DNA of 22,115 nucleotides, from positions 1-22,115 of IMG/VR virus record IMGVR_UViG_3300049259_000049; one strand, written 5' to 3'. The notes under the pieces were generated by a model, which saw only the letters and a list, made by a program, of their open reading frames with translations, was not told the DNA's origin and did not search any database. The stretch is from a virus. Positions 2,420 through 18,814 of the stretch are shown one piece after another. Each line of letters begins with the position of its first letter. The first letter of the stretch is position 1. Made by a program: the position numbers and the translations under genes.

Positions 2420-2796
2420 GCAGAAGCTACATCATGACACTTCCGGAGTACGAAGAATTCTTCCGCAAGCGGGTTCGTATGTATGGAGCGAAAGATATTC
2501 AGTATCTTTCTGGAAAGCTTATGATCGAGGCAGGGGAAGTGCACGATTACATCTGCAAGATCATCCGGGACGATTTCGAACGCGCGGTCGGTCCGGACGA
2601 GATGCAAGCTTACATAATGACGCGCGATGTTCTTAGAGAACGCATTGCAACTGAGCTTGGCGACACTCTTTGGTATCTCATCCGGATCACCAATCTTCTT
2701 GGCTACAATCTGCAAGACATCCTCGCGATGGAAGCGGAGAAGATCGTGGGCAGGCAAGAGCGTGATACGGATCACGGATCGGGAGATGATCGATGA
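2416..2796 (+). CDS. mazG: MazG-like nucleotide pyrophosphohydrolase
   Basis: A 126-residue protein of the MazG/all-alpha NTP pyrophosphohydrolase type, which hydrolyses (d)NTPs to monophosphates and pyrophosphate in the cytoplasm. The visible signature is the metal-binding ELGDTLWYL segment near residue 80. It is preceded by a helix with paired acids (LMIEAGEVHDY, near residues 36-46) and followed by a helix ending in EAEKIVGRQ. The start at 2416 overlaps the polymerase stop as ATGA and has an AAAGGTGGAG ribosome site at 2399-2408. A start at 2395 is in frame but lies inside the polymerase gene and ahead of that site. Its position directly after the polymerase suggests a role in managing the nucleotide pool during replication. 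The substrate is not predictable from sequence. Confidence 0.78.
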   Translation: MSRSYIMTLPEYEEFFRKRVRMYGAKDIQYLSGKLMIEAGEVHDYICKIIRDDFERAVGPDEMQAYIMTRDVLRERIATELGDTLWYLIRITNLLGYNLQDILAMEAEKIVGRQERDTDHGSGDDR

Positions 2797-3071
2797 GCGA
2801 AGAAAAGCCAAAGGAAATCCTGACGCGCGTCGTGTGGACGTTCCACCGCGAGGTCCTAAAGGTAACGGAGGTCGAGGAGCATTATAATCACCGGAAGGCC
2901 GATCCGACCAAAGACCCGTCCGAACAAAACATGGCCTATGATATTCGCACTATCGGATGGCAGGTGCGAATATCGGATGGGTCGGCCATCGGGCTCTTTC
3001 CGGAGAACCCGGGCTACAAGCCGGGGGATGAATTGGAAATGACTATAACAAGGAAAAGGGCAAAGCCGTGA
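2793..3071 (+). CDS. Hypothetical protein, small
   Basis: A 92-residue protein I do not recognise. Its ATG overlaps the upstream stop as ATGA, and its stop overlaps the GTG start of the next gene, so it sits firmly in a coupled operon. The sequence alternates charged and hydrophobic segments. A stretch near residues 48-75 (DIRTIGWQVRI, then IGLFPENPGY) looks like short beta strands. The C-terminus (ITRKRAKP) is basic. No signal peptide, membrane helix or catalytic motif is visible. Placement among replication genes suggests a small accessory protein, but no function can be given. Confidence 0.72.
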   Translation: MSEEKPKEILTRVVWTFHREVLKVTEVEEHYNHRKADPTKDPSEQNMAYDIRTIGWQVRISDGSAIGLFPENPGYKPGDELEMTITRKRAKP

Positions 3072-3346
3072 CCTATCTTCCTCCCCGCCCGCCGCTCCTT
3101 CCTTCGGAGGGCATAACTTGGCCTCCCCGTCTTAAAGCCGTCGTTACGCGGATCAATACCGATAAGCGCAACGTTAGCAATGAGGAATGGCAATACTTCA
3201 AGAAGCATTTGAGGGAGGTCGATCCGGAAGCGGATATCCGATGGAAAAGCGAGAGCGCTCGACGAAGAGCTATCACGTATGCAGTTAACTATCTCAACAT
3301 CGAGGACCTTGAGAAACTCATAAAGCACAAACACACCCGTCCATAG
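3068..3346 (+). CDS. Hypothetical protein, small, GTG start
   Basis: A 92-residue protein of unknown function. The start codon is GTG at 3068, overlapping the upstream TGA as GTGA, which is the only sensible start given the coupling. The N-terminus is proline-rich (residues 4-20). The rest is charged and probably helical, with Arg/Lys clusters around residues 28-34 and 59-68 and a basic end (IKHKHTRP). The TAG stop is followed at once by an AAAGG ribosome site serving the clamp loader gene at 3361. No family is recognised. Confidence 0.68.
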   Translation: MTYLPPRPPLLPSEGITWPPRLKAVVTRINTDKRNVSNEEWQYFKKHLREVDPEADIRWKSESARRRAITYAVNYLNIEDLEKLIKHKHTRP

Positions 3347-3360
3347 AAAGGGAATGCGCA

Positions 3361-4341
3361 ATGGTTGCGAGAGCGACGACAAAAGAAATCGAGCCTATCA
3401 AGCCAAATCCGCTTCATAAGAAGTACCGCCCCGATCGATGGCGCGATGTCATCGGGCAGGATGCCGCGGTCAAATCCCTTGAAGGGATTATAGCGCGGCG
3501 GGGTTCTCAGGCGTTCCTATTCGTTGGCCCATCGGGGGTTGGCAAGACGAGCATAGCCCGGATTGCCGCCAAGGAACTCGGCGCGCTGAATGCTCAAGAT
3601 GTGCGGGATTTTGACGCTGCAACGAATAGCGGGGTTGATGCGATCCGCGCCATTAAGGAGATGGCGGATTATCAGCCTTTCGGCGACAGCACGGCACGAT
3701 GCATCATCATCGACGAGGCGCATGGCCTGAGTAAACAGGCATGGGACGCGCTGCTCAAGATTACGGAGGAACCTCCTCCCCATATATTCTGGATGTTCTG
3801 CACGACGAATGAAGCAAAGGTTCCTATCACGATCAAGCGCCGCTGCACGATCCTCCACCTTAAGCTGGTCAAGGAGCGCGAGCTTGGCGAACTCTATGAC
3901 TTCGTCGCCGAAGAGGAGCGGATCGATATTCCGGGCGATGTTGCGGATATGGTTATCCGCGAAGCACAAGGATCGCCCCGGCAACTTCTCGTCAATATGG
4001 AAACATGCCGCGACGTGACCAGCAAACGTGAAGCGGCGGAACTTCTTAAGACCGTCGTCGAGGTCAAGGCGGTGCTTGAGCTTTGTCAATATCTGGCGAA
4101 AGGCAGGGGATCGTGGGCTAAGCTCATGGGAATTTATACGACCATCGATGAGGAAGAGAACCCAGAAAGCGTCCGGATCGTAATCCAGCGCTACTTCGCC
4201 AAGGTCATCGCAGGGGCAAAAAGCGATGACGCAGCATGCGCCGCTTTACAAATCATGGACGCTTTCGCCGAGACTTACAATTCGGCGGAAGGCTCCGCTC
4301 CATTGCTGCGTTCGCTTGGGCGGGCAATGTTTTCCGCCTAG
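3361..4341 (+). CDS. dnaX: DnaX-like clamp loader AAA+ ATPase
   Basis: A 326-residue AAA+ protein that most resembles the motor subunit (gamma/tau, DnaX) of the sliding-clamp loader. The opening LHKKYRPDRWRDVIGQ is the classic DnaX/RFC entry motif. Walker A is GPSGVGKT (56-63), Walker B IIIDEA (115-120), sensor 1 CTTN (147-150), and the arginine-finger region reads KRRC (159-162). The four zinc-binding cysteines that bacterial DnaX carries between Walker A and Walker B are absent, and the protein stops after a short helical collar domain, so there is no tau extension. No sliding clamp or second loader subunit is visible here. This is one of five genes whose product begins MVAR. A GAAAGGG ribosome site precedes the ATG. 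DnaX-like is more likely than an RFC small subunit or T4 gp44. Confidence 0.88.
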   Translation: MVARATTKEIEPIKPNPLHKKYRPDRWRDVIGQDAAVKSLEGIIARRGSQAFLFVGPSGVGKTSIARIAAKELGALNAQDVRDFDAATNSGVDAIRAIKEMADYQPFGDSTARCIIIDEAHGLSKQAWDALLKITEEPPPHIFWMFCTTNEAKVPITIKRRCTILHLKLVKERELGELYDFVAEEERIDIPGDVADMVIREAQGSPRQLLVNMETCRDVTSKREAAELLKTVVEVKAVLELCQYLAKGRGSWAKLMGIYTTIDEEENPESVRIVIQRYFAKVIAGAKSDDAACAALQIMDAFAETYNSAEGSAPLLRSLGRAMFSA

Positions 4342-4390
4342 CCGTGTATGATTGAATAGACCCAATGAGGGTAGAGGGAGGCCCTGCCAA

Positions 4391-4633
4391 ATGCCCACAC
4401 ATTCGCGCTACGCGAAGCTTGCTCTTCGCGCTCCGGAACGGCTGATCATCGCTTTACCATTCATATGGCTGAAAGCGGATAGTTCGCACATCTACTTACG
4501 GACGGCTTTGTGCGATATTACTTTATGTCCGGATAGCGAAGCAGGGAGGCAAACAAAGATCGTCACGAGCGACGAAGATGCATGGGAATGTCGTCTATCC
4601 CATGGTGAAGGCATCACGATAGTCAACACATAG
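4391..4633 (+). CDS. Hypothetical protein, small
   Basis: An 80-residue protein that I do not recognise. I place the start at the ATG at 4391 because a GAGGGAGG ribosome site lies about 9 bases upstream; an in-frame TTG at 4352 would add 13 residues but has no such site. The sequence has a hydrophobic stretch (LIIALPFIWL, near residues 18-27) followed by a probable beta-rich segment with two cysteines. It is too short to call a membrane protein with confidence. It ends 13 bases before the next MVAR gene, whose ribosome site directly follows this stop codon. Confidence 0.55.
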   Translation: MPTHSRYAKLALRAPERLIIALPFIWLKADSSHIYLRTALCDITLCPDSEAGRQTKIVTSDEDAWECRLSHGEGITIVNT

Positions 4634-4646
4634 AAAGGCACCCACA

Positions 4647-5294
4647 ATGGTGGCAAGATCGAATAGTCGGCGCGACCCGCCCTCCCCTCCTCGCACGGGA
4701 AGCGGCGTGCCGAATGAACCGCGCGGGCAACGTTCCAATGCTCCACGATCCGACGCCGTCGGCGGCGTCTCGATTGAAGAACTCGAAAGGGCTCTTCCAA
4801 TCGGGCAGGACTTGGAGCAAGCGGACCGCGAGCAAGCGGAAGCTTACTGGCGCGTTGCCAAAGCGGCCGCAATCGCTACGTCGCGCCGCGATGCTGCTTA
4901 CCAGAACATCAAGGAGGTCGAAGCTTCCGAAGATCAGAAAATCCGCGACAGCTATGGCGCGGAAGATAAGATCACGGAAAAGGCAATCGAAAGCGAGCGG
5001 CGCAATTCCCCCGCCGTTCGCGCGGCGATCCGCGAACATCTCGCACTTGCGGAGCGGGCAGCCGTCCTTGGTGCCTTGACCCGCTCCTTCGAGCAGCGTA
5101 GCTACGCACTCAAGGACTTGGTGCAGATGTTCCTTCGTGACTTCTTCACTCAGCAGGGGACGAGAAGCGATCCGGTCGCGGATAACATCCGCCGCGAGCG
5201 GCACGAAGAGCGCCAACGCCGCTCTTCCCGTGATGAGGATGACCGCGACGCTCGCGAGCGTCGTGAAGGCGGACGCGGCCGGAACCGTGATTAG
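4647..5294 (+). CDS. Helical protein with Arg/Asp-rich tail, upstream of SSB; function unknown
   Basis: A 215-residue protein without a family I can name. Residues 1-40 are basic, proline-rich and probably disordered, starting MVAR. Residues 41-180 look almost entirely helical, rich in Ala, Glu and Arg, with no Cys and few aromatics. Residues 181-215 are a mixed-charge tail of Arg, Asp, Glu and Ser. The tail closely resembles the N-terminal region of the single-strand binding protein encoded next, which suggests the two proteins meet or share a binding partner. Position beside SSB and RecA genes recalls the UvsY or gp59 mediators of T4, which are also small and helical, but I see no sequence match to either, so a mediator role is only inferred. 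Confidence 0.75.
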   Translation: MVARSNSRRDPPSPPRTGSGVPNEPRGQRSNAPRSDAVGGVSIEELERALPIGQDLEQADREQAEAYWRVAKAAAIATSRRDAAYQNIKEVEASEDQKIRDSYGAEDKITEKAIESERRNSPAVRAAIREHLALAERAAVLGALTRSFEQRSYALKDLVQMFLRDFFTQQGTRSDPVADNIRRERHEERQRRSSRDEDDRDARERREGGRGRNRD

Positions 5295-5334
5295 AGCTTT
5301 CAACCAGAGAGCGTGAAAGAAGGAGAAGCTTACT

Positions 5335-6678
5335 ATGGTAGCACGTCGAGCAAGCGCGAGCCGTGGCAGTAGCCGGGATCGCGACAATGATCGTGGTTCG
5401 CGCCGCGGTCGGGACGAAGAGCGGGGAAGTCGTGGGGGTCGTGATCGGGACGACGATCGTGGGGGAAGGGATCGGGATCGCGACAATGATCGCGATGAAC
5501 GCTCATCATCGCGGCGGGATCGGGATCGCGACCGGGATGAAGATCGCGGAAGCCGGGGCGGAAGGAGCGGTCGCGGGAAAGGCGGCGGCTTCGTCTACAA
5601 GCCACGCGATCCGGAAGCCACCAAGAAGAAAGCGGAGCGCCAAGGCGGCAACTTCGACTCCATCGTGAAAAGCAACGTCGATGTTTGGCGTCCGAAGAGC
5701 GGCGATAACCTGATCCGCATCCTTCCGCCGACGTGGGATAACCACGACGACTGCGTCTACACCATTTGGCTCCACAAGTATGTCGGGCCGGATGAGAGCA
5801 CGTATCTGTGCCCGCGCAAGATGCTGAACAAGCATTGCCCGATCTGTGCAGAAGCCAAGGCGTGCAACGATGCGGGCGACAAGGAAGGTGCGAAGGTCTA
5901 CCGCGCCGGTGAGAACGTCGCAATGTGGATCATCGACCGCGACGACAAGACCGATCCGCCAATGCCTGCCTTCTATACGATGTCGGAGCGGCAATGGCGG
6001 GATATCATCAAGGTGTCGATCGACAAAAAGAAGGGCAGCGTCCTCACGATCGATCATCCCGACGAGGGCTACGACCTCTCGATCTTCCGGAGCGGATCGG
6101 GCCAGCGCACTCGCTACTCCGGCTTCGCCTTCGACCGCGACAAAAGCCCCATCGACGACGACGAGGGTATCCAGAATGATATTCTCGAATTCGCCGAGAA
6201 AAATCCGATCCCCGACGTTCTCAACTATTACGACGAGGATTATCTCGACAACGTCATCTCCGGGACCCAGCCGGAGCGGGATCGCGATGCCGGGGATGAT
6301 CGCGGGAAAGATGATGACAACGGCGACGATAAGGATCGCGATGGCGATCGTGGCTCTTCGCGTCGCGGAAGTCGGGATCGCGACGATGATGGCGACCGCG
6401 GCAGTAGCCGCCGCGGTAGTCGAAACCGGGATCGTGACGACGACAAGGATCGCGATAACGACGATGGCAATGGTGCCGACGAAGGTGCCGACGACGATAA
6501 CGGCAATGGCGCCGACGAGGAGGATGATAACGACAAGGATAACGATCGCGGCGGTCGGAGCGAGCGGCGTGGAAGCCGGGAGGATCGGGACAACGACCCC
6601 CCTCCTCCCCGGAGGAACGCCCGCCGTGGGAGTAGCGGCGAAAGGGGCGGGAGGAGTGAGCGTCGCTATCGCGACTAG
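5335..6678 (+). CDS. gp32-like single-stranded DNA-binding protein with long Arg/Asp-rich tails
   Basis: A 447-residue protein whose core (about 85-312) resembles T4 gp32-type single-strand binding proteins. It has a KSGDNLIRILPP strand (121-132), then a zinc-binding set Cys159, Cys168, Cys171 and Cys177 within CPRKMLNKHCPIC...C, then OB-fold-like strands. It would coat single-stranded DNA at the fork and in recombination. The core is flanked by two low-complexity tails. Residues 1-84 are nearly all Arg, Asp, Gly and Ser; residues 313-447 are similar but acidic in the middle (Asp/Asn/Glu-rich 365-405) and basic at the end. Ordinary SSBs carry only a short acidic C-terminal tail, so this is unusual. 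The start has an AAGAAGGAGA ribosome site, and a hairpin terminator follows the gene. Confidence 0.85.
   Translation: MVARRASASRGSSRDRDNDRGSRRGRDEERGSRGGRDRDDDRGGRDRDRDNDRDERSSSRRDRDRDRDEDRGSRGGRSGRGKGGGFVYKPRDPEATKKKAERQGGNFDSIVKSNVDVWRPKSGDNLIRILPPTWDNHDDCVYTIWLHKYVGPDESTYLCPRKMLNKHCPICAEAKACNDAGDKEGAKVYRAGENVAMWIIDRDDKTDPPMPAFYTMSERQWRDIIKVSIDKKKGSVLTIDHPDEGYDLSIFRSGSGQRTRYSGFAFDRDKSPIDDDEGIQNDILEFAEKNPIPDVLNYYDEDYLDNVISGTQPERDRDAGDDRGKDDDNGDDKDRDGDRGSSRRGSRDRDDDGDRGSSRRGSRNRDRDDDKDRDNDDGNGADEGADDDNGNGADEEDDNDKDNDRGGRSERRGSREDRDNDPPPPRRNARRGSSGERGGRSERRYRD
5365..5580 (+). repeat. Low-complexity Arg/Asp-coding repeats in SSB N-terminal tail
   Basis: Degenerate GATCGGGATCGCGAC-like units are repeated through the part coding for the SSB N-terminal tail. 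One exact 20-base copy occurs twice, at 5374-5393 and 5473-5492. These repeats could expand or contract by slippage or recombination, and they create long open shadows in other frames. Confidence 0.8.
6270..6600 (+). repeat. Low-complexity Arg/Asp-coding repeats in SSB C-terminal tail
   Basis: Imperfect repeats of GATCGCGAT/GACGATAAC-like units encode the C-terminal tail of the SSB. Units coding RGSSRRGSR occur twice (protein residues 339-347 and 355-363), and GNGADE occurs at 378-383 and 390-395. The units are related to those in the N-terminal tail. Confidence 0.75.
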
Positions 6679-6701
6679 CTCTCTTTGACGGGAACCATCG
6701 G

Positions 6702-6731
6702 CGGGAGGGCAGGAAACGCCCTCCCGTTTCT
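6702..6731 (+). terminator. Rho-independent terminator between SSB and RecA genes
   Basis: A perfect 9-base-pair GC-rich stem (CGGGAGGGC, 6702-6710, with GCCCTCCCG, 6718-6726) and a 7-base loop are followed by TTTCT. It sits in the 84-base gap after the SSB gene and would reduce or stop readthrough into the RecA-like gene, so a promoter for that gene may lie near 6727-6755. The short T run suggests partial termination. Confidence 0.75.
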
Positions 6732-6762
6732 CACATAAAAGCTTTCATCAAGGAGCGGGAAA

Positions 6763-7794
6763 ATGGTAGCGCGAATTTCTAAGAGCGGTGATCGGGCGCA
6801 AGAGGGTGGCAATTACTTCGCCAAGCAACAAGAGGGCGTCGAGTTCTTTCCTTCCGGATGCCTCAACCTCGACTTGATACTCGGCGGGGGATGGGCGGAA
6901 GAGCGGCATATAAATGTCATCGGCGATAACTCCACCGGCAAGACCCTGCTTGCTATCGAGGCAGCTACCAACTTCATGCGGAAGTATGGCAAGAAGGCTC
7001 GCGTCCGTTATCGCGAGAGGGAGAAGGCTTTCGATTTGAGTTATGCGAAAGCCTTGGGAATGCCCGTCGATGATGTCGACTTCGGCGACCCGGAAGAGCC
7101 TTGGCGGGCGGTCGAGGATATGTACGATGAAATCGATTACCGCTGTGATAAGGCGGCGACCAATGACTACCATACGCTCTTCATCATCGACTCCCTCGAT
7201 GCCATTTCCTCTCGTGCCGAGTTAGCTCGCGCCATCGATGAGGGCAGCTACGGCGCGGAAAAGGCCAAGATGATGTCACAGCTATTCCGCCGCAAGACCG
7301 ATCCGATGAAGGAGGCGCGGATTACGCTTTGGATTATTTCACAGACCCGCGACAAGATCGGCGCGACCTTCGGCAAGAAATATACGCGATCGGGCGGCAA
7401 TGCGATGGACTTCTACTGTTCGCAGATTGTCTATCTCGCGCACGTCGAGAACGTATGGCGCGAGCTTGGCGGCTTCAAGCGGCCGGTCGGTAATCACATT
7501 CGCGCTCGCATGGACAAGTGCAAGGTCGGCCTTCCTTACCGCCAATGTGATTTCAACATCCTCTTCGGCTTCGGCATCGACGATTTGACTGCCTGTTTGA
7601 ATTGGGCAAAGGCCCATAAGATCGCGGATGATATCTACGACCATCATAGCGTGAACAAGAGCAAATACAGCCGCCTCGTCGCCAGTCTTGACAAGGACGA
7701 ATACAACAAGGAGCTTGCCCGCGTCAGGGAAATCGTTACGAAGAGATACTGGGAAATCGAAAAGACGTTTCTTCCCACCCGCACCAAATACTAA
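6763..7794 (+). CDS. recA: RecA/UvsX-like recombinase
   Basis: A 343-residue strand-exchange ATPase that would form filaments on single-stranded DNA for recombination-dependent replication and repair. Walker A is GDNSTGKT (54-61) and Walker B LFIID (139-143). The DNA-binding loop 2 region (194-213) matches RecA in SQTRDKIGATFG and in SGGNAMDFY, and KCKVGLPYRQCDFNILFG matches the strand after it. The catalytic Glu of RecA (Glu96) aligns with Glu87, but the usual IDAEHA context reads YREREKA (83-89). The C-terminal RecA domain is reduced to a short helical tail. It begins MVAR and has an AAGGAGCGGG ribosome site. A RecA-like protein of phage type is certain; whether it is closer to RecA or UvsX is not. 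Confidence 0.92.
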   Translation: MVARISKSGDRAQEGGNYFAKQQEGVEFFPSGCLNLDLILGGGWAEERHINVIGDNSTGKTLLAIEAATNFMRKYGKKARVRYREREKAFDLSYAKALGMPVDDVDFGDPEEPWRAVEDMYDEIDYRCDKAATNDYHTLFIIDSLDAISSRAELARAIDEGSYGAEKAKMMSQLFRRKTDPMKEARITLWIISQTRDKIGATFGKKYTRSGGNAMDFYCSQIVYLAHVENVWRELGGFKRPVGNHIRARMDKCKVGLPYRQCDFNILFGFGIDDLTACLNWAKAHKIADDIYDHHSVNKSKYSRLVASLDKDEYNKELARVREIVTKRYWEIEKTFLPTRTKY

Positions 7795-7817
7795 TTGGCA
7801 ATGAATGAGGGGCGGGC

Positions 7818-8015
7818 ATGGGCGTTATCAATTCGCATGATCGCGGCAAGCGGTGCCTATCCAAGATCGGAAGGCATTGCAGCGAACTCATCCTGCTCAT
7901 TCAGGAGGGGCGCACCAAGGAAGCTCTCGAAACCGCAGGCGATCTTGCCGCCGATCTTCGCGGCTTGCAGGAATGGCAAAGAAGCGTTCTGAGAAGGAAA
8001 GCAAATGGTCGCTAG
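7818..8015 (+). CDS. Hypothetical protein, small
   Basis: A 65-residue protein of unknown function. A GAGGGGCGGG ribosome site lies just upstream of the ATG, and its 3' end overlaps the following nuclease gene by 11 bases, suggesting translational coupling. It appears to be two short helices (about residues 18-32 and 34-57) with a basic C-terminus (VLRRKANGR). A second reading frame (7795-7992) is open across the same bases, but it lacks a ribosome site and gives a compositionally odd product. Confidence 0.6.
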   Translation: MGVINSHDRGKRCLSKIGRHCSELILLIQEGRTKEALETAGDLAADLRGLQEWQRSVLRRKANGR

Positions 8016-8580
8016 GAGAAGCAGCCCCCGTCGAACCGCCCGCTCCAAACCTCGCGCCAAGGGCAAGGGGAAGGGCCAGCAATTCGAGAGGGAGGTCTGT
8101 AAAGCTCTTTCGCTTTGGGTCTCCGGGGGAGAGCGCTCCGATGTATTCTGGCGATCCGCGATGAGCGGCGGGCGGGCAACCGTTCATGGGGCGGGAAACG
8201 TCCGGCAAGCGGGGGATATTACGGCGGTATCAAGCGAGGGCTTCGACCTGACAGATCGTTGCTACTTCGAATGCAAATTCTACAAGAACCTGAATATTCA
8301 ACTCTTCATCCTCCACGGCGGCGGGAAGCTGGCGGCTTTCTGGGAAGAGACCTGCAAGCGGGCTCATGAACATAATCGACATCCGGTGCTCGTCGTCAAG
8401 GAGAATAACGAAGTCCCGCTCGTCATCATGCTGCGAGAGTTTCAGGGGCTACTGGGTCTCTATACGGATGATAGCTTGCCTCATCTCAACAACTGCATGG
8501 GGGCATCCTGCACAGTATTCAAATTGTCGGATATTCTTGCGCAGCCCTACTACGTACCTCGCATCAAAAGGAGAACCTGA
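8005..8580 (+). CDS. PD-(D/E)XK nuclease, probable recombination or Holliday junction endonuclease
   Basis: A 191-residue protein with the layout of a PD-(D/E)XK nuclease. A helix carries the acid of FEREVCKAL (27-35), followed by QAGDI with Asp71, then YFECK with Glu89 and Lys91. The strand-helix order and the conserved GG/GAGN segments before Asp71 resemble Holliday-junction resolvases and related phage recombination nucleases. Residues 1-24 are a very basic, probably disordered tail beginning MVAR, likely to bind DNA. It lies directly after the recombinase and before the SbcCD-like genes, which supports a role in resolving recombination intermediates. The exact substrate (junction, flap or other structure) is an inference. 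Confidence 0.78.
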   Translation: MVARRSSPRRTARSKPRAKGKGKGQQFEREVCKALSLWVSGGERSDVFWRSAMSGGRATVHGAGNVRQAGDITAVSSEGFDLTDRCYFECKFYKNLNIQLFILHGGGKLAAFWEETCKRAHEHNRHPVLVVKENNEVPLVIMLREFQGLLGLYTDDSLPHLNNCMGASCTVFKLSDILAQPYYVPRIKRRT

Positions 8581-8582
8581 AA

Positions 8583-8930
8583 ATGGCCAGCGTTATCGGT
8601 ACTCGCAAGACGCAATACCATCCGCGCAATCCGACGCAGCGTATGGAGGAGCTTCGTAAAGAGAAGGCGCGAGCAAAAGATAAGTCCATCGATTGGGATA
8701 AGATAGTCAAAGAAAGTCTAAACGTCCTTATGCAATTCAAGAAGCATTTCGCCGACCCGAAGAACCGAGCTTCGAGTATGCTCAAGGCGAAATGCCCGCG
8801 CAAGGGATGCGGCGGAATGGTCTGGGCGCGAACATCCGGCCCACCCAAGCACCATATCCACTTCGCCTGCACGAACACGTCTAGCAAGCAAGGAGGAACG
8901 GGGGAGTGCTTTATCCAAGGGATGGAGTAA
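8583..8930 (+). CDS. Zinc-ribbon-like hypothetical protein
   Basis: A 115-residue protein starting two bases after the nuclease stop. The N-terminal 65 residues are basic and helical. The C-terminal part carries four cysteines arranged like a zinc ribbon: Cys71, Cys76 (CPRKGCGG), Cys96 and Cys109. Such small zinc ribbons often bind nucleic acids or proteins. No named family is recognised. Its place between two recombination nucleases hints at a DNA-related role, but that is inferred from neighbours only. Confidence 0.72.
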   Translation: MASVIGTRKTQYHPRNPTQRMEELRKEKARAKDKSIDWDKIVKESLNVLMQFKKHFADPKNRASSMLKAKCPRKGCGGMVWARTSGPPKHHIHFACTNTSSKQGGTGECFIQGME

Positions 8931-9088
8931 ACAAGAAGGCACCAAAAGCTTCGACCGCCTTATGCTGCCGGGGAGGCGCGCAAGCAAAGCTCCGCAACTA
9001 CTGCATCTACTTTGTTGCCGCCCGCTTCATCGCATGGGAACACTTCACGAAACGGAGAAGGATCAATGACAATAAAAAGAAAGACTAA
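8906..9088 (+). CDS. Possible very small basic protein (uncertain)
   Basis: A 60-codon frame starting GTG with a good AAGGAGG site at 8890-8896, overlapping the zinc-ribbon gene by 25 bases and the next gene by 23. It fills the only plus-strand gap of more than 100 bases. The product is basic, with four cysteines and a Lys-rich end (RRRINDNKKKD). Nothing about its composition is strongly protein-like, so it may be chance; if it is false, the gap 8931-9065 holds nothing I recognise. Confidence 0.3.
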   Translation: MLYPRDGVNKKAPKASTALCCRGGAQAKLRNYCIYFVAARFIAWEHFTKRRRINDNKKKD

Positions 9089-9374
9089 AGCTGATATCGA
9101 AGCCGCGCGGCATGCGGAAGAAGTCACGAAGCAACTGCGCGAGCGCTGCCGGGAAATGCTCTCGACGCTTAGCAGAGACGCAATCCTCCGGCAAAACAAT
9201 CCGGTCGAAACGTTGATGGCCTTCGTGCTTTCGGAGCGCGGGCGGGAGCGCTCCCCGGAACTCACCCACCTAAAGGCGATTATCCTTTACTTCGCCGATA
9301 ACGATGGGCGGGAAAGCTTGATCGATTTCCTCAAGACCCAATGCCCGAACACGATCACACAGAAAATTAGCTAG
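9066..9374 (+). CDS. Hypothetical protein, helical
   Basis: A 102-residue protein of unknown function. The ATG at 9066 has a GAGAAGGA ribosome site; an in-frame TTG at 9012 would add 18 residues but lacks one. Residues 7-40 look like a charged helix (ADIEAARHAEEVTKQLRERC), followed by further helices to residue 95. No motif of catalysis, zinc binding or membrane insertion is visible. The stop is two bases before the ATG of the SbcD-like gene, so the two are probably translated together. Confidence 0.7.
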   Translation: MTIKRKTKADIEAARHAEEVTKQLRERCREMLSTLSRDAILRQNNPVETLMAFVLSERGRERSPELTHLKAIILYFADNDGRESLIDFLKTQCPNTITQKIS

Positions 9375-9376
9375 CC

Positions 9377-10372
9377 ATGTCGATCCGCTCATTGATCGTC
9401 GGCGATCTTCATTTGAACGATAACCCCCGTGATAAGTACCGTCACGATTTTCAAAGCTATCTACGAGATATCGTCTACGAGAGCAAGCCGGATCGATTGA
9501 TCTTCGTGGGGGATTTCACCGACGCAAAGGATCGCCACTCCGCATGGCTGGTCAACAAGATCGTCAACTACTTCGCGCTTCTTGCCGAATTGGTTGACGA
9601 GATAATCGCACTGCAAGGCAACCATGATTACCTGGACGAGGAGTGGCCCTTCTTCGAGTTCCTTTCGCATATCGAGGGCATCCGCTGGATAAGGCGACCC
9701 CGCCTGATTGACGATTGGTTATTCCTTCCCCACACGAGGGATTACGAAGCGGATTGGAAAGGCGTCGATCTAAAGCGCCCCCGCCTGATCATCACACATA
9801 ACACATTCGCAGGGGCGGATAACGGGTTCGGCAAACGCTTGCGCGGTATCCCGCTTGAAGTGATCCCGAAGGGAGCGCAGGTGATTTCCGGGGATGTACA
9901 TGTGCCGCAGGAGCTTGGACCGGTCAGTTATATTGGTGCTCCCTACACAATCAATTTCGGAGACGATTTCCACCCACAACTATTCTTGATTGAAGGGGAG
10001 AAGCTGACCCCGATCCCCTGCGATGGCCCGCAAAAGATACTCGTCGAGGTCGAAGCAGGAAAGAAGCTCGATCCTCATTCGACCTTGAATAGTGTAAGAG
10101 CAGGCGACATCCTCAAGGTCCGCGTGCATATAGATGCCGATAAGGTCGATCAGTGGCCCAAGCTCCGAAGTGATATCCGCTCATGGGCGGATAAATACGA
10201 TATTACCATTTCAATCATCCAACCAATCGTCAAATACCGCGGGAGCAAACAAGTCAAAGGAGGAGCAATCAAGAAACGCTCCGATAAAGAATTGATCTTA
10301 GCCTACGGAAAGAACCGCAGCGTCGATCCGGGCACTCTCAAGACTGGTACGTTAATCGCTGAACGCTCATAA
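9377..10372 (+). CDS. sbcD: SbcD/gp47-like calcineurin-fold nuclease subunit
   Basis: A 331-residue metallophosphoesterase, the nuclease half of an SbcCD/Mre11-Rad50 or T4 gp47-gp46 complex that processes DNA ends for recombination. All five motifs are present in order: GDLHL (Asp10, His12), GDFTDA (Asp46), GNHD (81-84), THNTF (His in the fourth motif) and GDVH (fifth motif). The C-terminal third is the capping domain. The Rad50-like partner is encoded three genes downstream at 10901, with two small genes between, as often seen in phages. The polypeptide is about the length of T4 gp47. Confidence 0.92.
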   Translation: MSIRSLIVGDLHLNDNPRDKYRHDFQSYLRDIVYESKPDRLIFVGDFTDAKDRHSAWLVNKIVNYFALLAELVDEIIALQGNHDYLDEEWPFFEFLSHIEGIRWIRRPRLIDDWLFLPHTRDYEADWKGVDLKRPRLIITHNTFAGADNGFGKRLRGIPLEVIPKGAQVISGDVHVPQELGPVSYIGAPYTINFGDDFHPQLFLIEGEKLTPIPCDGPQKILVEVEAGKKLDPHSTLNSVRAGDILKVRVHIDADKVDQWPKLRSDIRSWADKYDITISIIQPIVKYRGSKQVKGGAIKKRSDKELILAYGKNRSVDPGTLKTGTLIAERS

Positions 10373-10384
10373 GGAGAAGAGCAG

Positions 10385-10684
10385 ATGTCAAATGTAAATG
10401 TAAAAGCAAATCGCCTCGTTCTTTGGCCGAGCATCCTGACGCGGAGCGGCTTTGTCGTCGAGAAATGGCCAGCGGGTAAAAGCTACGAACGAATGACGAA
10501 AGATAATGAACACGATACAAAGCACACGACCCCCGCGCGGGAAACTGTCCTTACGGACGAGGAGTGGCAACTCAACATCCGACAGCTGGTCGAGAAGTAT
10601 CCGCTTCCGGACGCTCCTTGGAAACGCAAGGATGGCGTAGTCCGTTCAATTTCCTTAAGCAAGAATACGCGCGACGTGGAATGA
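10385..10684 (+). CDS. Hypothetical protein, small
   Basis: A 99-residue protein between the two nuclease-complex genes, preceded by an AAGGAGAAGAG ribosome site and followed after 4 bases by the next ATG. It contains an acidic-aromatic helix (TDEEWQLNIRQLVEKY, residues 57-72) and otherwise looks soluble and charged. I do not recognise it and see no active-site motif. Confidence 0.65.
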   Translation: MSNVNVKANRLVLWPSILTRSGFVVEKWPAGKSYERMTKDNEHDTKHTTPARETVLTDEEWQLNIRQLVEKYPLPDAPWKRKDGVVRSISLSKNTRDVE

Positions 10685-10688
10685 CCCC

Positions 10689-10901
10689 ATGTTATTCTAC
10701 GTTGGTCTAGATCACGTGTCGGATGCGAAGCACTTTGATCGGGCCTTCATTTCCATCAATGCCATTCGCGGCCGCAAGAGCGACCTTGCGGTCAACGATT
10801 GGATTATGGATAGTGGGGAAGCCAAGAATTTTGAGACGAAGGTCAATCGCTTGATCGCGATCCCCGCGCGGAAACCCAGTCTCCCATTTTGGATGCGATA
10901 A
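10689..10901 (+). CDS. Truncated DpdA/queuine tRNA-ribosyltransferase-like protein (N-terminal fragment)
   Basis: A 70-residue product whose first 43 residues resemble the N-terminus of phage and bacterial queuine-tRNA-ribosyltransferase-like proteins related to DpdA, which insert 7-deazaguanines into DNA or RNA. The match runs from MLFYVGLDHVSDAKHFDRAF through ISINAIRGRK to NDWIMDSG. In the family DSG is followed by AFT and ~200 further residues with the rest of the TIM barrel. Here it changes to EAKNFETK and ends 27 residues later. The Asp of DSG is present, but the barrel is missing, so the protein cannot be an active transglycosylase. The stop overlaps the next start as TAATG, so translation may be kept to couple expression of the SbcC-like gene. 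The family link rests on memory of the pattern, not on a search. Confidence 0.6.
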   Translation: MLFYVGLDHVSDAKHFDRAFISINAIRGRKSDLAVNDWIMDSGEAKNFETKVNRLIAIPARKPSLPFWMR

Positions 10902-12748
10902 TGGACCTCGATTTTGACTTACTGGATATTGAAGGCTTTCGTACCTTCATCGGCAGAGAGGTTCTCGACTTCCATGCGATAGGCCCCGGCCTCCATTTCA
11001 TGGAAGGCCGGAACCTTGCCAAACCCAGCCTTGAGAGCAATGGAGCGGGGAAATCCTCCATATGGGGAGCGCTGGTTTGGTGCCTCTATGGAAAGACGGT
11101 CGGCGGGCTCAATCGAAATGATGTCAAGCCTTGGGAATGTTACGGCAAGATACCAACTTATGTCGAGCTTCACATATTCTGCGACCACAAAAAGCATCGC
11201 ATTTTACGAACGCTTTCCAAGCTCACGCTTGATGGCAAGATCGTTCCGCAAGAACGAATTGATGCCCTCATCGGTATGAGCTTTGCCGTCTTTACTCACA
11301 CGATCTTGCTTGGTCAGGGGCAACATCTTTTCTTCGACCTCTTCCCTTCCAAGAAGCTCGAACTCTTTACTCCGATCCTCAAGCTTGACAGATGGGATAA
11401 CTATTCCAAGACCGCAGGCGACGAGGCAAAAGGGATCGCCTCCGATATCACCGCGGCAAATGCCAAGCTCGACGCATTGGATGAGGAGAAGCGGCGACTT
11501 AACCTAGATCGCGGTCGCCTCGATGATCAATCGGAAGATTGGGAACAGGAGCGGCGCGAGCGTAACAAGAAATCCAATACGGACCTGACGAAGCTGGAAA
11601 AGGAGTTGAAGCACGCCGAAGATCGTCACGCGGAAGCCAGCCTTAAGGTCGATGGGGCGGGGGCGGAAATCAAAGGCTTGATAACAGAGATTACGCGCGG
11701 CGAAAAACTCCTTGCCGCATCGGAGAAACAGTTACTCAAATTCAATTCGGATATGGAACGCAAACGTGAGCGCGCCAATGAGCTTGATGACGAATTGGGT
11801 AAGCTAGGCAAGGGTGATAAATGCCCGACGTGTGGGCAATCAACAAAAGGGACGGCCTTAGCAAAGCATCGGGCGGACCTCGAACGCCGCATATCCGCGC
11901 TAGATGACGAGAGCCAAGCCAAACCTCCCAAGAAGCTCGTCGAAGATATCGCGAAGCTGACCAAGACCTTGAAGATCGCCGAAGATGCACGAGCGCGGTT
12001 CGAGGCGGTGATCGATCGATGGCAGGCAGGAGTCGATTTCACCGCTCCGCAGATAGCTGGCTTGAAAGCTCAAATCAATGCAGCCAAAGAAGCCAAGCGC
12101 GAGCGGGAGGAGGAGAGCAATCCCTACTTGGAGCAGCGCCGATCCCTCGATAAGAGAGCCCGCCAGATTGCCAAGGAAATCGGCCGCTTGCAGGACCAAC
12201 TTATCTCCCTTGAAAGCAGGAAAACCCAAACAGCATTCTGGGTCAAAGGCTTCAAGGAAGTGAAGCTTTATGAAATCGAGGAATGCCTTCACGAATTGGA
12301 GATTGCCACGAACTCCATGCTTGACGAATTTGGATTGATCGATTGGGCAGTACGATATGATATCGAGCGCGAGACCAAATCGAATACGACTCAGCGCGGG
12401 CTTAATGTCATGATCCTCTCCCCGGAGAATGATAAAGCAGTCAAATGGGAGGCTTGGTCCGGGGGAGAAGGCCAGCGCTTGCGGATTTGCGGGGCGCTTG
12501 CGCTTGGCGAAGTGCTGCTTCATTATGCCGGGATCGAACCGAGCTTGGAAATTCTCGACGAACCGACACAAGCCGTTAGCAGGCGGGGAATAGATGACCT
12601 CTGCGAATTCCTAGCGGAGCGGGCACAACGCCTCGATCGTCAGATTTTCCTGACCGACCAACACGTCATCCAAAGCCCCGCCTTTTCCTCGACCATTACC
12701 GTAACGAGAGAAAAGAAATATGGGTCCCGGATCGACACAAAGAGTTAA
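10901..12748 (+). CDS. sbcC: SbcC/gp46-like Rad50-type ATPase
   Basis: A 615-residue SMC-like ATPase, partner of the SbcD-like nuclease, that uses ATP to open and process DNA ends. Walker A is SNGAGKSS (46-53), the zinc hook CPTC (308-311), the ABC signature WSGGEGQ (519-525) and Walker B LEILDEP (550-556). Long charged coiled coils fill about 170-305 and 320-455. It is shorter than cellular SbcC (~1050) and close to T4 gp46 (~560). I start it at the ATG at 10901, which forms TAATG with the upstream gene; an in-frame TTG at 10889 would add four residues. The end of the gene lies four bases before the next ATG. Confidence 0.92.
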   Translation: MDLDFDLLDIEGFRTFIGREVLDFHAIGPGLHFMEGRNLAKPSLESNGAGKSSIWGALVWCLYGKTVGGLNRNDVKPWECYGKIPTYVELHIFCDHKKHRILRTLSKLTLDGKIVPQERIDALIGMSFAVFTHTILLGQGQHLFFDLFPSKKLELFTPILKLDRWDNYSKTAGDEAKGIASDITAANAKLDALDEEKRRLNLDRGRLDDQSEDWEQERRERNKKSNTDLTKLEKELKHAEDRHAEASLKVDGAGAEIKGLITEITRGEKLLAASEKQLLKFNSDMERKRERANELDDELGKLGKGDKCPTCGQSTKGTALAKHRADLERRISALDDESQAKPPKKLVEDIAKLTKTLKIAEDARARFEAVIDRWQAGVDFTAPQIAGLKAQINAAKEAKREREEESNPYLEQRRSLDKRARQIAKEIGRLQDQLISLESRKTQTAFWVKGFKEVKLYEIEECLHELEIATNSMLDEFGLIDWAVRYDIERETKSNTTQRGLNVMILSPENDKAVKWEAWSGGEGQRLRICGALALGEVLLHYAGIEPSLEILDEPTQAVSRRGIDDLCEFLAERAQRLDRQIFLTDQHVIQSPAFSSTITVTREKKYGSRIDTKS

Positions 12749-15409: not shown

Positions 15410-15976
15410 CTAGCCGGTTCCGGGAGCGCCCGCCTTATCGATAGCTCCCCTGCCTCCGAAGAGCCCGGACGGAAGCTTGGCGGAAGGAGCGGCTTCCGCG
15501 ATCGTCGCTTGCATCTTGGTTATGGACTTCGTCGTGCTGGCCTTCTCCAATGGCCGAAGTCCGACGATCGCCGTAATGATCCCGATGAAAAGATACATCC
15601 AGATTGGGACCATGTGGCTTGTGTCGATGCCGATTGCGGCCGCAAGCTTTGGAAGCGTGGACTCGATTGCAACGCACGCCAGCACGAAAGCCGCGATGAG
15701 AAAAGCAATCTTCCTCATCCACGAGTTCTTTTCATTCGTGCTATCCGCCAATGCTTGCGCGGCATAAAGCTCTCCGGTGCGGGTATCGGATTGATAACCG
15801 CCAAGGGTAATCTGCGTCGCGGCATTGACGTCCATCCCGTGTTGATCGACCATCGCCTTTTGCTTTGCCGCGTAAGCTTCCGCCAAAGGAGCGCCGATCT
15901 TATTGGCGATGTTCCCCGCGGTTGAAAAGATGGCCGTTGCTCCTCCGGTGAAGAGCCAGCTAATCAGACTGCCCAT
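15410..15976 (-). CDS. Holin-like membrane protein
   Basis: A 188-residue protein with two clear membrane helices (about 87-106 and 122-141) and a possible weaker third at the N-terminus (3-24), followed by a flexible Gly/Pro/Ala-rich C-terminus. The arrangement resembles three-helix holins such as those of gene transfer agents. It sits six bases after the endolysin gene with an AAGGAAG site, which supports a holin role, making the holes or triggering lysis. Whether it permits endolysin passage is unclear, because the endolysin next to it has its own membrane helices. Confidence 0.65.
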   Translation of the reverse strand: MGSLISWLFTGGATAIFSTAGNIANKIGAPLAEAYAAKQKAMVDQHGMDVNAATQITLGGYQSDTRTGELYAAQALADSTNEKNSWMRKIAFLIAAFVLACVAIESTLPKLAAAIGIDTSHMVPIWMYLFIGIITAIVGLRPLEKASTTKSITKMQATIAEAAPSAKLPSGLFGGRGAIDKAGAPGTG

Positions 15977-15982
15977 GACTGA

Positions 15983-17350
15983 TTACTTCCTTTTCCTGAT
16001 CTTGGATTTCTTCGCGGGCTTACGCTTCGCAGGCTTGCGCTTGGCCTTGGCTTTCTTCTTCGCTGGTTTCTTCGCGGGGCGCTTCTTGGTGATCTTCCTC
16101 GCAACCTTCGCAACGACGACATGCTCCGGAGCGTTCGCCGCCTCGACCGCAGGAGCCAACACGTCAACCGGGAGCGTGCCCGGATCGGTCACCGCGGCAA
16201 GTGCCGGAGTCGGCGTGGCCCCTGCAACATGCGAGCTATCCGCCGCGACAGTTACTGCGAGGGTCGGATCAATCTTGCCTTGCTCACCAGTTGCGATCGA
16301 TCGGAAATAATCGAATGCGCGCGAGACGCCGACGGAAAGCAAGAGCGCATATTGTGAAGCCTGTACTTCCATCTCGGTAAATGGAATATGGATGGCAGGC
16401 AGGAAGGAGTTAAGATCGATGCCGGTCCCGCCGATTGCCGTATCCGCGTAGCTGAATGCGAAGGTCAGCGCTCCCAATCCTTCGACCAAGCGTGCGAGCA
16501 TCTTGGTGCGCAAGCCTTGGACGAATACGAGAAAGCGCGTCTTGATATCCGCGTCGGCGAATTCCGGGGCGTGCTGTAAGTAGTCACGCCAACGCGTATA
16601 AGCGGGGCGCAACACGTAGATGAAGAGCAGCACCAAGCCAATTGCGAGCACGACCCAAGGAAGTGCTTGCCCCGCGAATTTGACTGCGCCCGCCGCGCCG
16701 ATGCCCGCACCCCCAAGGATCGTACCCCAGAAGCTCTTATTGTTATTGACCGGCTTGGGGATGCCATCGGGAACCGGCGTAATCCCATCCCTCATAATCG
16801 GCTCCGGGGCCGGATCGCTATCCGTCGGTTGCGGAGCGTTAGCCTTGATGACTGGGTCCTTGGCAATCGCCGCCTCTTCCGCATTGTAAGCATCGAGCGC
16901 CATCTGAGACCATGAGACCCGTCCCTCGTAATGCGGAATGCCGGGGCGCTCGAATTTGACCATGAACATCTTGGTCGCATCCGCAACGGTCTTACAGGTT
17001 CGCATTGCCGGAATGGTGGCTTTCTCCGGCCCCTTGAGTTCCGTTTTCAGCATGCCGTACATGAAGTCATAATTGAGCGCATCCCTTGGGGACGTCGGAT
17101 CGCCCCCATGCGCCTTGATATAAGCTTCGTAAGCACGGCGACGCGGTCCGGTCCATTGGAAGCCACCCCATCCTCCCTTGGGTGGCTTGATGCCTCCTTC
17201 TTGCGCGATGGTAAAGCCCCCGCTTTCGCCGCCTCCGTTGCCGACGATGCCCGCCGCTTGGGTTGCGGAGAGCGGAGCGAAGTCGCGCATAAGATCACGC
17301 ATCATGCGGGGCGCTAGCGTCCGGAATACGGAATAGTTGACTTTAGTCAT
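15983..17350 (-). CDS. Membrane-bound endolysin with lysozyme-like domain and Lys-rich tail
   Basis: A 455-residue protein. Residues 22-155 resemble the phage tail-lysozyme/lysozyme-2 domain: GIVGNGGGESGGF with the probable catalytic Glu42, GGFQWTGPRRRAYEAY (62-77) and a closing HYEGRVSWSQMALDAY. It would cleave peptidoglycan. After a Pro/Asp-rich linker come a strong membrane helix (about 229-248) and less certain hydrophobic segments near 290-305 and 333-345. The last 37 residues contain 23 Lys or Arg in PAKK/KRK repeats, like histone H1 tails. The start has a strong AAGGAGGAG site and overlaps the upstream gene by 8 bases. A lysozyme on a membrane-anchored chain with a polycationic tail is uncommon. 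The tail could disturb the outer membrane, bind DNA or hold to lipopolysaccharide, all of which are inference. Confidence 0.82.
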   Translation of the reverse strand: MTKVNYSVFRTLAPRMMRDLMRDFAPLSATQAAGIVGNGGGESGGFTIAQEGGIKPPKGGWGGFQWTGPRRRAYEAYIKAHGGDPTSPRDALNYDFMYGMLKTELKGPEKATIPAMRTCKTVADATKMFMVKFERPGIPHYEGRVSWSQMALDAYNAEEAAIAKDPVIKANAPQPTDSDPAPEPIMRDGITPVPDGIPKPVNNNKSFWGTILGGAGIGAAGAVKFAGQALPWVVLAIGLVLLFIYVLRPAYTRWRDYLQHAPEFADADIKTRFLVFVQGLRTKMLARLVEGLGALTFAFSYADTAIGGTGIDLNSFLPAIHIPFTEMEVQASQYALLLSVGVSRAFDYFRSIATGEQGKIDPTLAVTVAADSSHVAGATPTPALAAVTDPGTLPVDVLAPAVEAANAPEHVVVAKVARKITKKRPAKKPAKKKAKAKRKPAKRKPAKKSKIRKRK

Positions 17351-17696
17351 GGAACTCCTCCTTGTCGTGGGACTTATGTGATTTCTTAACGCCCCCGTTT
17401 AGTACCTCTGGCGGGATCAATCCTTTCGAGCGAATGAATTCTTCAAGATGGTCGACCGTGATCTGACACTCAGCGACTTCCTCCCGAAGCTCCTTGATAT
17501 CATCCTGCAAATCATTGATCGTCCCGGCTTGCCGCTTTATCTCGTCCGTAAGCTTATCGACCAATCCCTTGAAACCCTCGTTGATGATCCCCTGCACGTC
17601 CGTCCCGGATTTCTTCCGCTGCACCAGATAAACGAATAGCCCGGTAACTAATGCGGACAGAACAACACCGATCGTCGTGACCATTTCCGGTGCCAT
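17343..17696 (-). CDS. Single-helix coiled-coil protein of the lysis block
   Basis: A 117-residue protein with one N-terminal membrane helix (about 5-26) without a signal-cleavage site, then a charged coiled coil (about 47-90), then a His/Lys/Asp-rich tail. This is the layout of inner-membrane spanins, which join inner and outer membranes at lysis, but no lipoprotein partner is seen, so the role is open. It starts one base after the stop of the gene before it and overlaps the endolysin by 8 bases. Confidence 0.65.
   Translation of the reverse strand: MAPEMVTTIGVVLSALVTGLFVYLVQRKKSGTDVQGIINEGFKGLVDKLTDEIKRQAGTINDLQDDIKELREEVAECQITVDHLEEFIRSKGLIPPEVLNGGVKKSHKSHDKEEFHD
17355..17363 (-). promoter_or_regulatory. 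Strong ribosome binding site of the endolysin gene
   Basis: AAGGAGGAG, read on the minus strand, lies inside the end of the upstream coiled-coil gene and about 6 bases before the endolysin ATG (17350). It is the best ribosome site in the lysis block and fixes the start. Confidence 0.8.
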
Positions 17697-17697
17697 T

Positions 17698-17940
17698 TTA
17701 CTTCTGTCCGTTGTGGGCTAAGTCTTCACTACCCAGCGGAATTTGAAGCTCCTTCTCCAAATCCTCCGTGATCGCTTTGACTTCCGTATGTACGCTCTTC
17801 TTAAGCTCGCGCACGAATTGCCGTTGCGCATAGCGGATCGAGAGCACCGCCGATAGGATGAGCATGAACACGTAACTGACGACCGTTAGTAATACACCCA
17901 CATCCGGATGCATCTGGGCCAACGTGCTCAAAACAGTCAT
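17698..17940 (-). CDS. Small single-helix membrane protein
   Basis: An 80-residue protein with a membrane helix (about 14-36) followed by a charged amphipathic segment (38-66). The start is one of two adjacent ATGs (17943 or 17940) that overlap the upstream stop; I prefer 17940, which is 5 bases from GGAG. A longer frame reaches 18180, but it overlaps the ETR1-like gene entirely and is probably a shadow. It resembles the gene that follows in design (helix, then charged chain). Function unknown. Confidence 0.6.
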   Translation of the reverse strand: MTVLSTLAQMHPDVGVLLTVVSYVFMLILSAVLSIRYAQRQFVRELKKSVHTEVKAITEDLEKELQIPLGSEDLAHNGQK

Positions 17941-18308
17941 CATTGCTCCAATAATCGTTGCGTGGTCACGATGGCGGTAACTACGGAGACAGCCGCCATC
18001 GCGGCGACGATAACGACATCCAAGCGATAAACGCCGAAGAACATCGTCAGGGTCTCCGTAAAATGATTGAGACCACAAAGGAAGATGAAGGCTCCAAACA
18101 ATCCGCGTGCTTCCGGGTTCAGCGTGACTTGCCGGAACCTCTTGAAGAAAAGCGTACCCCCGATAACAAAATAGGAGCATCCGGTCGAGATGTTCCCCGC
18201 AACATAGAGGATCATGAGCAGCGGATCATTCGTCAGGCAGATTGCGTGTTGCGAATAGCGCTCCGCTCCTAGCAGGTCGGCGAGGTCTCTTAACCAATCC
18301 AGGTTCAT
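17940..18308 (-). CDS. ETR1-like ethylene/copper-binding-type membrane domain, stand-alone
   Basis: A 122-residue protein with three membrane helices (about 31-55, 69-91, 97-114). The second helix reads LFGAFIFLCGLNHFTE, closely matching the FGAFxxLCGxTHL signature of ETR1-type ethylene receptors and the bacterial sensor kinases that share their N-terminal domain. Both residues that bind copper and ethylene in ETR1 are present: Cys78 and His82 (Cys65 and His69 in ETR1). Tyr46 aligns with ETR1 Tyr32, while the position of Asp25 appears to be Asn39. The third helix, AAMAAVSVVTAIV, also resembles the family. No kinase, GAF or response domain follows, so it is a bare sensor or a repurposed membrane module. 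It overlaps both neighbours by 4 bases or fewer and lies in the lysis block. Confidence 0.65.
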   Translation of the reverse strand: MNLDWLRDLADLLGAERYSQHAICLTNDPLLMILYVAGNISTGCSYFVIGGTLFFKRFRQVTLNPEARGLFGAFIFLCGLNHFTETLTMFFGVYRLDVVIVAAMAAVSVVTAIVTTQRLLEQ

Positions 18309-18814
18309 GACGTTACCTCAAGATCGAATTCGGCGATTGTGCTCGTTTGGCTTCGCAGGGGGCAGTGAGAGTCGGCGGCAACGGTCATCGTCCACTTGCC
18401 GGGCCATACCGTATCGGGGACGTCGAGCGCGACGGGGAAATCCCGATACACTCCGATATCCGATCGCGTGATCGGACGCCGGATAGTCACGACGGCAGGC
18501 GGCTGGTCGGTCCTTTCCGTCTTTGACGTGAATGTTGTAACGATATCTCCGGGGCAGGATTGGTTCTGCCGCGTATGCACCACGTAGATAACATGCCCGC
18601 CCCGCTTTATCGTCGGCGTGACCAACTGCGGCTTGACGGTCGTCGAGTGCTCGAAGACCGGGCTTTCGATATCGTAAGGCAGCACTAGCAAGAAAGAGAT
18701 ACCGATGGACAGTAAGCCGATGCCCGCTGCGTTTGCGTAGAAATTCCACAGCAGGCATATATACATAACCCATTTTCTATTGGCCTTTTGTTTCTCGAAC
18801 CATCGCAGTACCAT
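18305..18814 (-). CDS. Membrane-anchored protein with extracytoplasmic domain
   Basis: A 169-residue protein with a basic cytosolic N-terminus (residues 1-14), one long or two short membrane helices (about 15-46) and a probable periplasmic beta-rich domain (50-169). That domain has two cysteines, Cys87 and Cys151, that could form a disulfide. Its stop overlaps the start of the ETR1-like gene as ATGA, so the two are likely made together and may form a pair. It is not a lipoprotein (no lipobox seen). No family is recognised. Confidence 0.62.
   Translation of the reverse strand: MVLRWFEKQKANRKWVMYICLLWNFYANAAGIGLLSIGISFLLVLPYDIESPVFEHSTTVKPQLVTPTIKRGGHVIYVVHTRQNQSCPGDIVTTFTSKTERTDQPPAVVTIRRPITRSDIGVYRDFPVALDVPDTVWPGKWTMTVAADSHCPLRSQTSTIAEFDLEVTS

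Follow-up and report, generated by a model that had tools for sequence, protein, structure and literature searches.

A kinase-less ethylene-receptor-type membrane domain encoded in phage lysis operons, a candidate split sensor

In plants, bacteria and fungi, the membrane domain of ethylene receptors is known as an input module that precedes a kinase, and in full ethylene receptors the third membrane helix continues into a cytoplasmic transmitter. The window analysed here, the whole 22,115-nucleotide stretch of the virus record IMGVR_UViG_3300049259_000049, raises the question of what such a domain does when it stands alone in a phage lysis cluster, as a first-pass annotation made from the sequence had proposed. 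The open reading frame in question (17940-18308, minus strand, start ATG, stop TGA) encodes 122 residues and matches the Pfam profile PF25487 (ETR1_N) with 54.7 bits (E=1.2e-14), the curated cut-off of this family being 27 bits, and the proposed ETR1-type domain is thus borne out. The assignment as a stand-alone ETR1_N-family protein further rests on a residue table against AzoEtr1 and on a three-helix model. The protein contains LFGAFIFLCGLNHF together with Cys78, His82 and Tyr46, which were found as annotated when checked in the translated frame. As the pattern FI..CG..H arose in only 3 of 200,000 shuffled versions of the sequence, as the ETR1_N family scored in none of the 14 control genomes, and as the motif is conserved in homologues, its presence is more than chance. 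PHROGs contained no family for this frame, and NCBIfam returned a chance-level row only.

An AlphaFold model based on the viral alignment (mean pLDDT 85.7, pTM 0.74) consists of long helices at 29-59, 65-91 and 94-121, in agreement with the three membrane helices that had been described, and Cys78 and His82 (C-x3-H) lie within the second of these, as expected of a PF25487 member. The absence of a kinase was also correctly noted: neither the sequence nor the model includes a kinase, PAS, GAF or other transmitter, since the frame terminates one residue past the third transmembrane helix. The N-terminus carries a charge of -3 and the first loop a charge of +2, and an extracytoplasmic N-terminus and a cytoplasmic C-terminus are predicted, as in ETR1. 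A fold comparison of the model with the PDB was uninformative, as it gave only generic helical bundles with Z<8, the ETR1 membrane domain being absent among the listed rows, and a search of BFVD gave nothing at E<=0.001, with a 289-residue protein of the same length as Colly1_63 as the best row (E=0.051). A sequence search of the PDB with the phage profile was discarded, as it produced chance matches to efflux pumps only. For the frame, neither Pfam nor PHROGs contained a holin family, and Foldseek rows that link the protein to holins were weak (E>1).

The setting in a phage lysis cluster could be confirmed, as a lysozyme and several small membrane genes share a tightly packed minus-strand operon in the order A, ETR1_N, C, D, lysozyme and weakly holin-like protein, in which successive genes either share 4 to 8 bases or are separated by 1 to 6 bases. 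The lysozyme (15983-17350, 455 residues; Phage_lysozyme2, E=3.6e-19) has C-terminal membrane segments and a Lys-rich tail, and its start overlaps the gene of protein D by 8 nucleotides. The last product, a membrane protein of 188 residues (15410-15976), is holin-like by weak matches only (Phage_holin_3_6, sub-threshold, E=0.016; phrog_2524, E=9.5e-4). Protein C (17698-17943, 81 residues), whose start overlaps the stop of the ETR1_N gene by four nucleotides (ATGA), comprises one transmembrane helix and an amphipathic helix with a predicted N-out/C-in topology by the charge rule, and has homologues in L001, L003, L004 and L008. Protein D (17343-17696, 117 residues), with homologues in L001-L009, has one transmembrane helix and a predicted cytoplasmic coiled coil, and exemplifies the kind of neighbour that recurs beside viral ETR1_N genes. 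Weak PHROG matches relate protein D to Rz-like spanins, but it does not fit the pattern of an Rz-type i-spanin, with an N-in transmembrane helix and a periplasmic coiled coil, by prediction: the positive charges follow the transmembrane helix, which predicts N-out/C-in according to the positive-inside rule. Protein A (18305-18814, 169 residues), for which no Pfam or PHROG family exists, has an N-terminal transmembrane helix and, judged by alignment and an AlphaFold model (pLDDT 73.5, transmembrane helix plus beta strands), a predicted extracytoplasmic Ig-like beta-sandwich, and its Cys87 and Cys151 are invariant in an alignment of seven homologues. This Cys pair belongs to an SCPG...CP motif that is invariant in the family, whose genes lie directly upstream of ETR1_N in the window, L001-L004, L007 and L008. 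Fold matches of protein A to Ig-like sandwiches reached Z 10.2 (NPC2, TRAP subunit) and are too common to indicate a function. Neither a kinase nor a response regulator, nor any other output module that could be recognised, was found in the window cassette. The early genes of the window lie on the plus strand (50-12748), convergent with the late minus-strand block, and include a DNA polymerase gene, supported by tblastn matches to DNA polymerases of phages, as well as genes that look, by eye, clamp-loader-like, RecA/UvsX-like, SbcD-like and SbcC-like.

Homologues in other phages, for which the first-pass annotation had suggested a search, do exist. Within a collection of 50,697 phage records, ETR1_N was limited to 8 records of the Maribacter phages Molly and Colly, which are cultured, all other viral relatives being metagenomic, and IMG/VR scans recovered the window's own clade at 46-59% identity as well as many distant lineages. 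All 38 further virus records that were searched again exceeded the Pfam cut-off, and most of them encode stand-alone ETR1_N proteins; many viral stand-alone domains are 93-130 residues long. A tree of this short domain did not discriminate between a single and several origins of the phage stand-alones, and a scan of genome contigs gave one match, in Paenibacillus, which was false, and neither a prophage nor a host. The tail protein of the window has its nearest counterparts in phages labelled Microcystis, Aurantimonas and Paracoccus. On plasmids, ETR1_N matches sit in longer open frames that are kinase-like where annotated, and alphaproteobacterial plasmids carry ETR1_N receptor proteins.

Other forms were seen among contigs classed as viral. 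Three related contigs (L025, L026 and L027, 5917-7356) encode a protein of 479 residues that, judged by eye, has an ETR1_N-PAS-histidine-kinase-like organisation and keeps all seven ethylene residues and Lys91, and it is possibly a complete virus-encoded ethylene-type receptor; the same contigs carry, by eye, ribonucleotide-reductase-like and CTP-synthase-like genes. Another type of output is suggested by L028 (5761-6828), where ETR1_N is followed by an apparent anti-sigma-antagonist (STAS-like) domain, again by eye. The stand-alone ETR1_N gene of G027 (349,660 bases; L122) has neighbours that look chromosomal (by eye DUF72-like, lipoproteins and ArfB-like) and may represent a bacterial stand-alone form. 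In G029 (39150-39428, minus strand), the match is interrupted by an in-frame TAG or a frameshift, representing either a decayed gene or a sequencing error.

What is most strictly kept in the viral proteins is the metal site. In ETR1, Cys65 and His69 hold Cu(I) (PMC6586836). When the viral proteins were aligned on AzoEtr1 (L012), the equivalents of both residues were present in 32 of 32 stand-alones, among them those of Molly and Colly, at about 25-55% identity; one search pattern required Cys and His, and 22 of the 32 came from motif-free searches or are the window protein itself. With a mean column identity of the alignment of about 50%, the Cys and His columns are much tighter. Homologues that lack both residues, as would have spoken against the annotation, did not occur among those checked. 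Due to this conservation and the role of the two residues in ETR1, the window protein likely binds copper(I) via Cys78 and His82.

The situation is different for ethylene, one of the inputs that had been considered for the window protein. In Arabidopsis ETR1 (AtETR1), Wang and colleagues are said to have identified Y32, I35, P36 and I62 in 2006 as the required positions besides D25, C65 and H69. The alignment with AzoEtr1 shows that the window protein keeps five of these seven residues (Tyr46, Ile49, Ile75, Cys78 and His82), whereas Asp25 is replaced by Asn39 and Pro36 by Gly50, and Val101 occupies the position of the Lys91 partner. All seven residues are required for ethylene binding by AtETR1, a change of D25 or C65 abolishes binding, D25 and K91 are a predicted polar pair, and AzoEtr1, in which the seven residues are conserved, binds ethylene (PMC11819568). 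The window protein therefore falls short of the complete set expected of a functional ethylene receptor, and it is doubtful that this member binds ethylene. By the same comparison, the proteins of L037, L039, G030 and G031, which keep all seven residues and Lys91, are better ethylene candidates. As D25 and P36 vary among the viral proteins, there is no general constraint in them on the geometry by which ETR1 senses its ligand. Among 46 aligned ETR1_N sequences, 29 combine Asp25 with Lys or Arg at position 91, 2 have Asp with another residue, 1 has Lys or Arg without Asp, and 14 have neither. The two positions thus appear to covary as the ETR1 model predicts, which is suggestive and not significant, since only three pairs are independent on well-supported branches. 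This natural covariation bears on models of ETR1 and would support the modelled Asp25-Lys91 contact.

Furthermore, the gene recurs with the same kind of neighbours. Four loci (L001, L003, L004 and L008) share the order A, ETR1_N, C, D, with muramidase genes upstream (in L001 a profile match to GH108), and L002 has the order A, ETR1_N, D beside a GH19 gene. A protein with one transmembrane helix and a helical region is encoded adjacent to 15 of 26 ETR1_N genes; among more distant genes of these loci, taken as controls, the figure is 9 of 265 (Fisher p=1.5e-12). This count applied a strict rule to automatically predicted genes, with related loci not collapsed. These partner proteins do not form one clear homologous family, and in 18 of 20 the positive charges follow the transmembrane helix. 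The coiled coil is therefore predicted to be cytoplasmic, contrary to what holds for an i-spanin and on the side expected for the output helix of a receptor. An endolysin or holin was recognised by profile within a few genes in the window, L001 (GH108), L002 (GH19), L009 (muramidase), G010 and G016 (both M15), G019 (PHROG endolysin), G021 (amidase), G022 (GTA_holin_3TM), G023 (weak lysozyme), G025 (GH25) and G036 (GH108). Lysis is not the sole setting of viral ETR1_N, as the genes of G017 and G024 lie outside a recognisable lysis region, and in several other ETR1_N-bearing fragments no endolysin was recognised. In two lineages, the lysis cassette with ETR1_N also includes a stand-alone PAS-domain gene, once with a GH25 endolysin (G025; L132, oriented, 8306-9460) and once with an amidase endolysin (G021; L080, 7944-8573, minus strand). 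In true receptors such as AzoEtr1, a PAS domain follows ETR1_N (PMC11819568).

What, then, could a receptor input domain do in a lysis operon? We tentatively favour, at somewhat less than an even chance, a split membrane sensor or switch, in which the kinase-less ETR1_N protein with its Cu(I) site acts together with the lysis cassette. The three-helix N-out/C-in protein, probably a dimer as in ETR1, would most likely hold Cu(I) between Cys78 and His82, and it would be co-produced from the lysis operon with the one-pass membrane proteins C and D, whose helices or coiled coils are predicted to be cytoplasmic. The cytoplasmic helix would thereby be supplied by a neighbouring gene, and the set could act as a split receptor; instead of phosphorylation, its output would be the state of the membrane complex for lysis, that is, holin action or endolysin release. 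The input of the window member would probably be copper occupancy or the redox state rather than ethylene, and relatives with a complete seven-residue site may sense ethylene. This is the simplest reading to cover the ligand conservation, the absent kinase, the position in a lysis operon and the cytoplasmic coiled-coil partners. Its fold family, the conservation of the site and the neighbourhood are established by the data, whereas binding of copper, contact with the partners and an effect on lysis are inferred. A generalised version, which we consider rather unlikely as it stands, is that in many phage lineages a split gas/copper receptor, made of ETR1_N, a coiled-coil partner and in some cases a free PAS protein, replaces the kinase pathway and directly gates the holin/endolysin system, with complete-site members answering to ethylene and the window type to copper or redox state.

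The main rival, a somewhat unlikely one in our judgement, is a holin- or antiholin-like scaffold, in which the three-helix bundle has been reused to form or block membrane lesions and the metal site is structural only. The size and the number of transmembrane helices indeed fit class I holins, the gene adjoins endolysins and other small membrane genes, and D25, P36 and K91 vary. Such a scaffold accounts for position and size but not for two ligands that never vary: it would not need a Cys and a His kept in 32 of 32 proteins at about 25-55% identity. Moreover, the G022 cassette holds a separate holin, and in two lineages the PAS genes close by point to sensing.

The remaining alternatives differ in what the domain would act upon. 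An improbable one is a decoy, by which the phage-encoded domain would associate with ETR1_N kinases of the host via the shared dimer interface and would block signalling in the host or keep other phages out; ETR1 has been modelled as a dimer through its membrane domain (PMC6586836), and the ETR1_N receptors on alphaproteobacterial plasmids, along with the phage labels of the window's tail protein, would be compatible with it, but the gene is mostly a late lysis gene with a recurrent type of partner, and not an early gene. It is quite improbable that the input is truly ethylene, from plants, cyanobacteria or soil, to which lysis or host physiology would answer. Membership in the family of the ethylene-binding AzoEtr1 (PMC11819568; L012) and the four proteins with a full site and Lys91 are in line with this, whereas the window protein has Asn, Gly and Val in place of Asp25, Pro36 and Lys91, against the strict requirements in AtETR1. 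Finally, the protein might buffer Cu(I) during lysis or shield lysis proteins from copper, which we regard as highly improbable: the copper ligands and an extracytoplasmic Cys pair of the neighbouring protein A are invariant, but one site in each protein would make a poor buffer, and no copper genes and no Met-rich or His-rich proteins were noticed in the cassette.

If the kinase-less form indeed senses a signal, lysis timing would be linked to copper, redox state or a gas. Irrespective of function, the viral stand-alones are very small natural ETR1 membrane domains that lend themselves to structural work, as in the literature searched the membrane domain of the receptor has so far been modelled. 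The open-access literature that we searched contained neither a phage ethylene-type receptor nor a description of a kinase-less form that recurs in lysis cassettes of phages with both copper ligands kept throughout. The window protein resembles class I holins and further small membrane proteins of phage lysis in size, number of transmembrane helices and gene position, but differs from them in its ETR1_N homology, its invariant metal ligands and the lack of a holin family match. The closest parallel in cultured phages is Colly1_63 (L005, 5890-6759), a viral ETR1_N protein of the Maribacter phages Colly and Molly that in Colly is encoded between a gene for a one-pass transmembrane and helical protein and an annotated amidase gene directly downstream. 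Unlike the window protein, Colly1_63 has an additional C-terminal region of about 165 residues without Pfam match, and the host of these phages is a flavobacterium. With Arabidopsis ETR1, the window protein shares the copper(I) ligands Cys65 and His69, here Cys78 and His82, and the predicted N-out/C-in topology, whereas GAF, kinase and receiver domains are lacking and two of seven ethylene-binding residues are lost. AzoEtr1 of Azospirillum brasilense (PMC11819568) and other bacterial ETR1_N histidine kinases have a homologous three-helix membrane domain, and the phage protein has in common with AzoEtr1 an H-x2-C motif ahead of the first transmembrane helix as well as Tyr32, Ile35, Ile62, Cys65 and His69; in contrast to AzoEtr1, it ends after the third helix, without PAS and kinase domains, is changed at Asp25, Pro36 and Lys91, and is encoded in a lysis operon.
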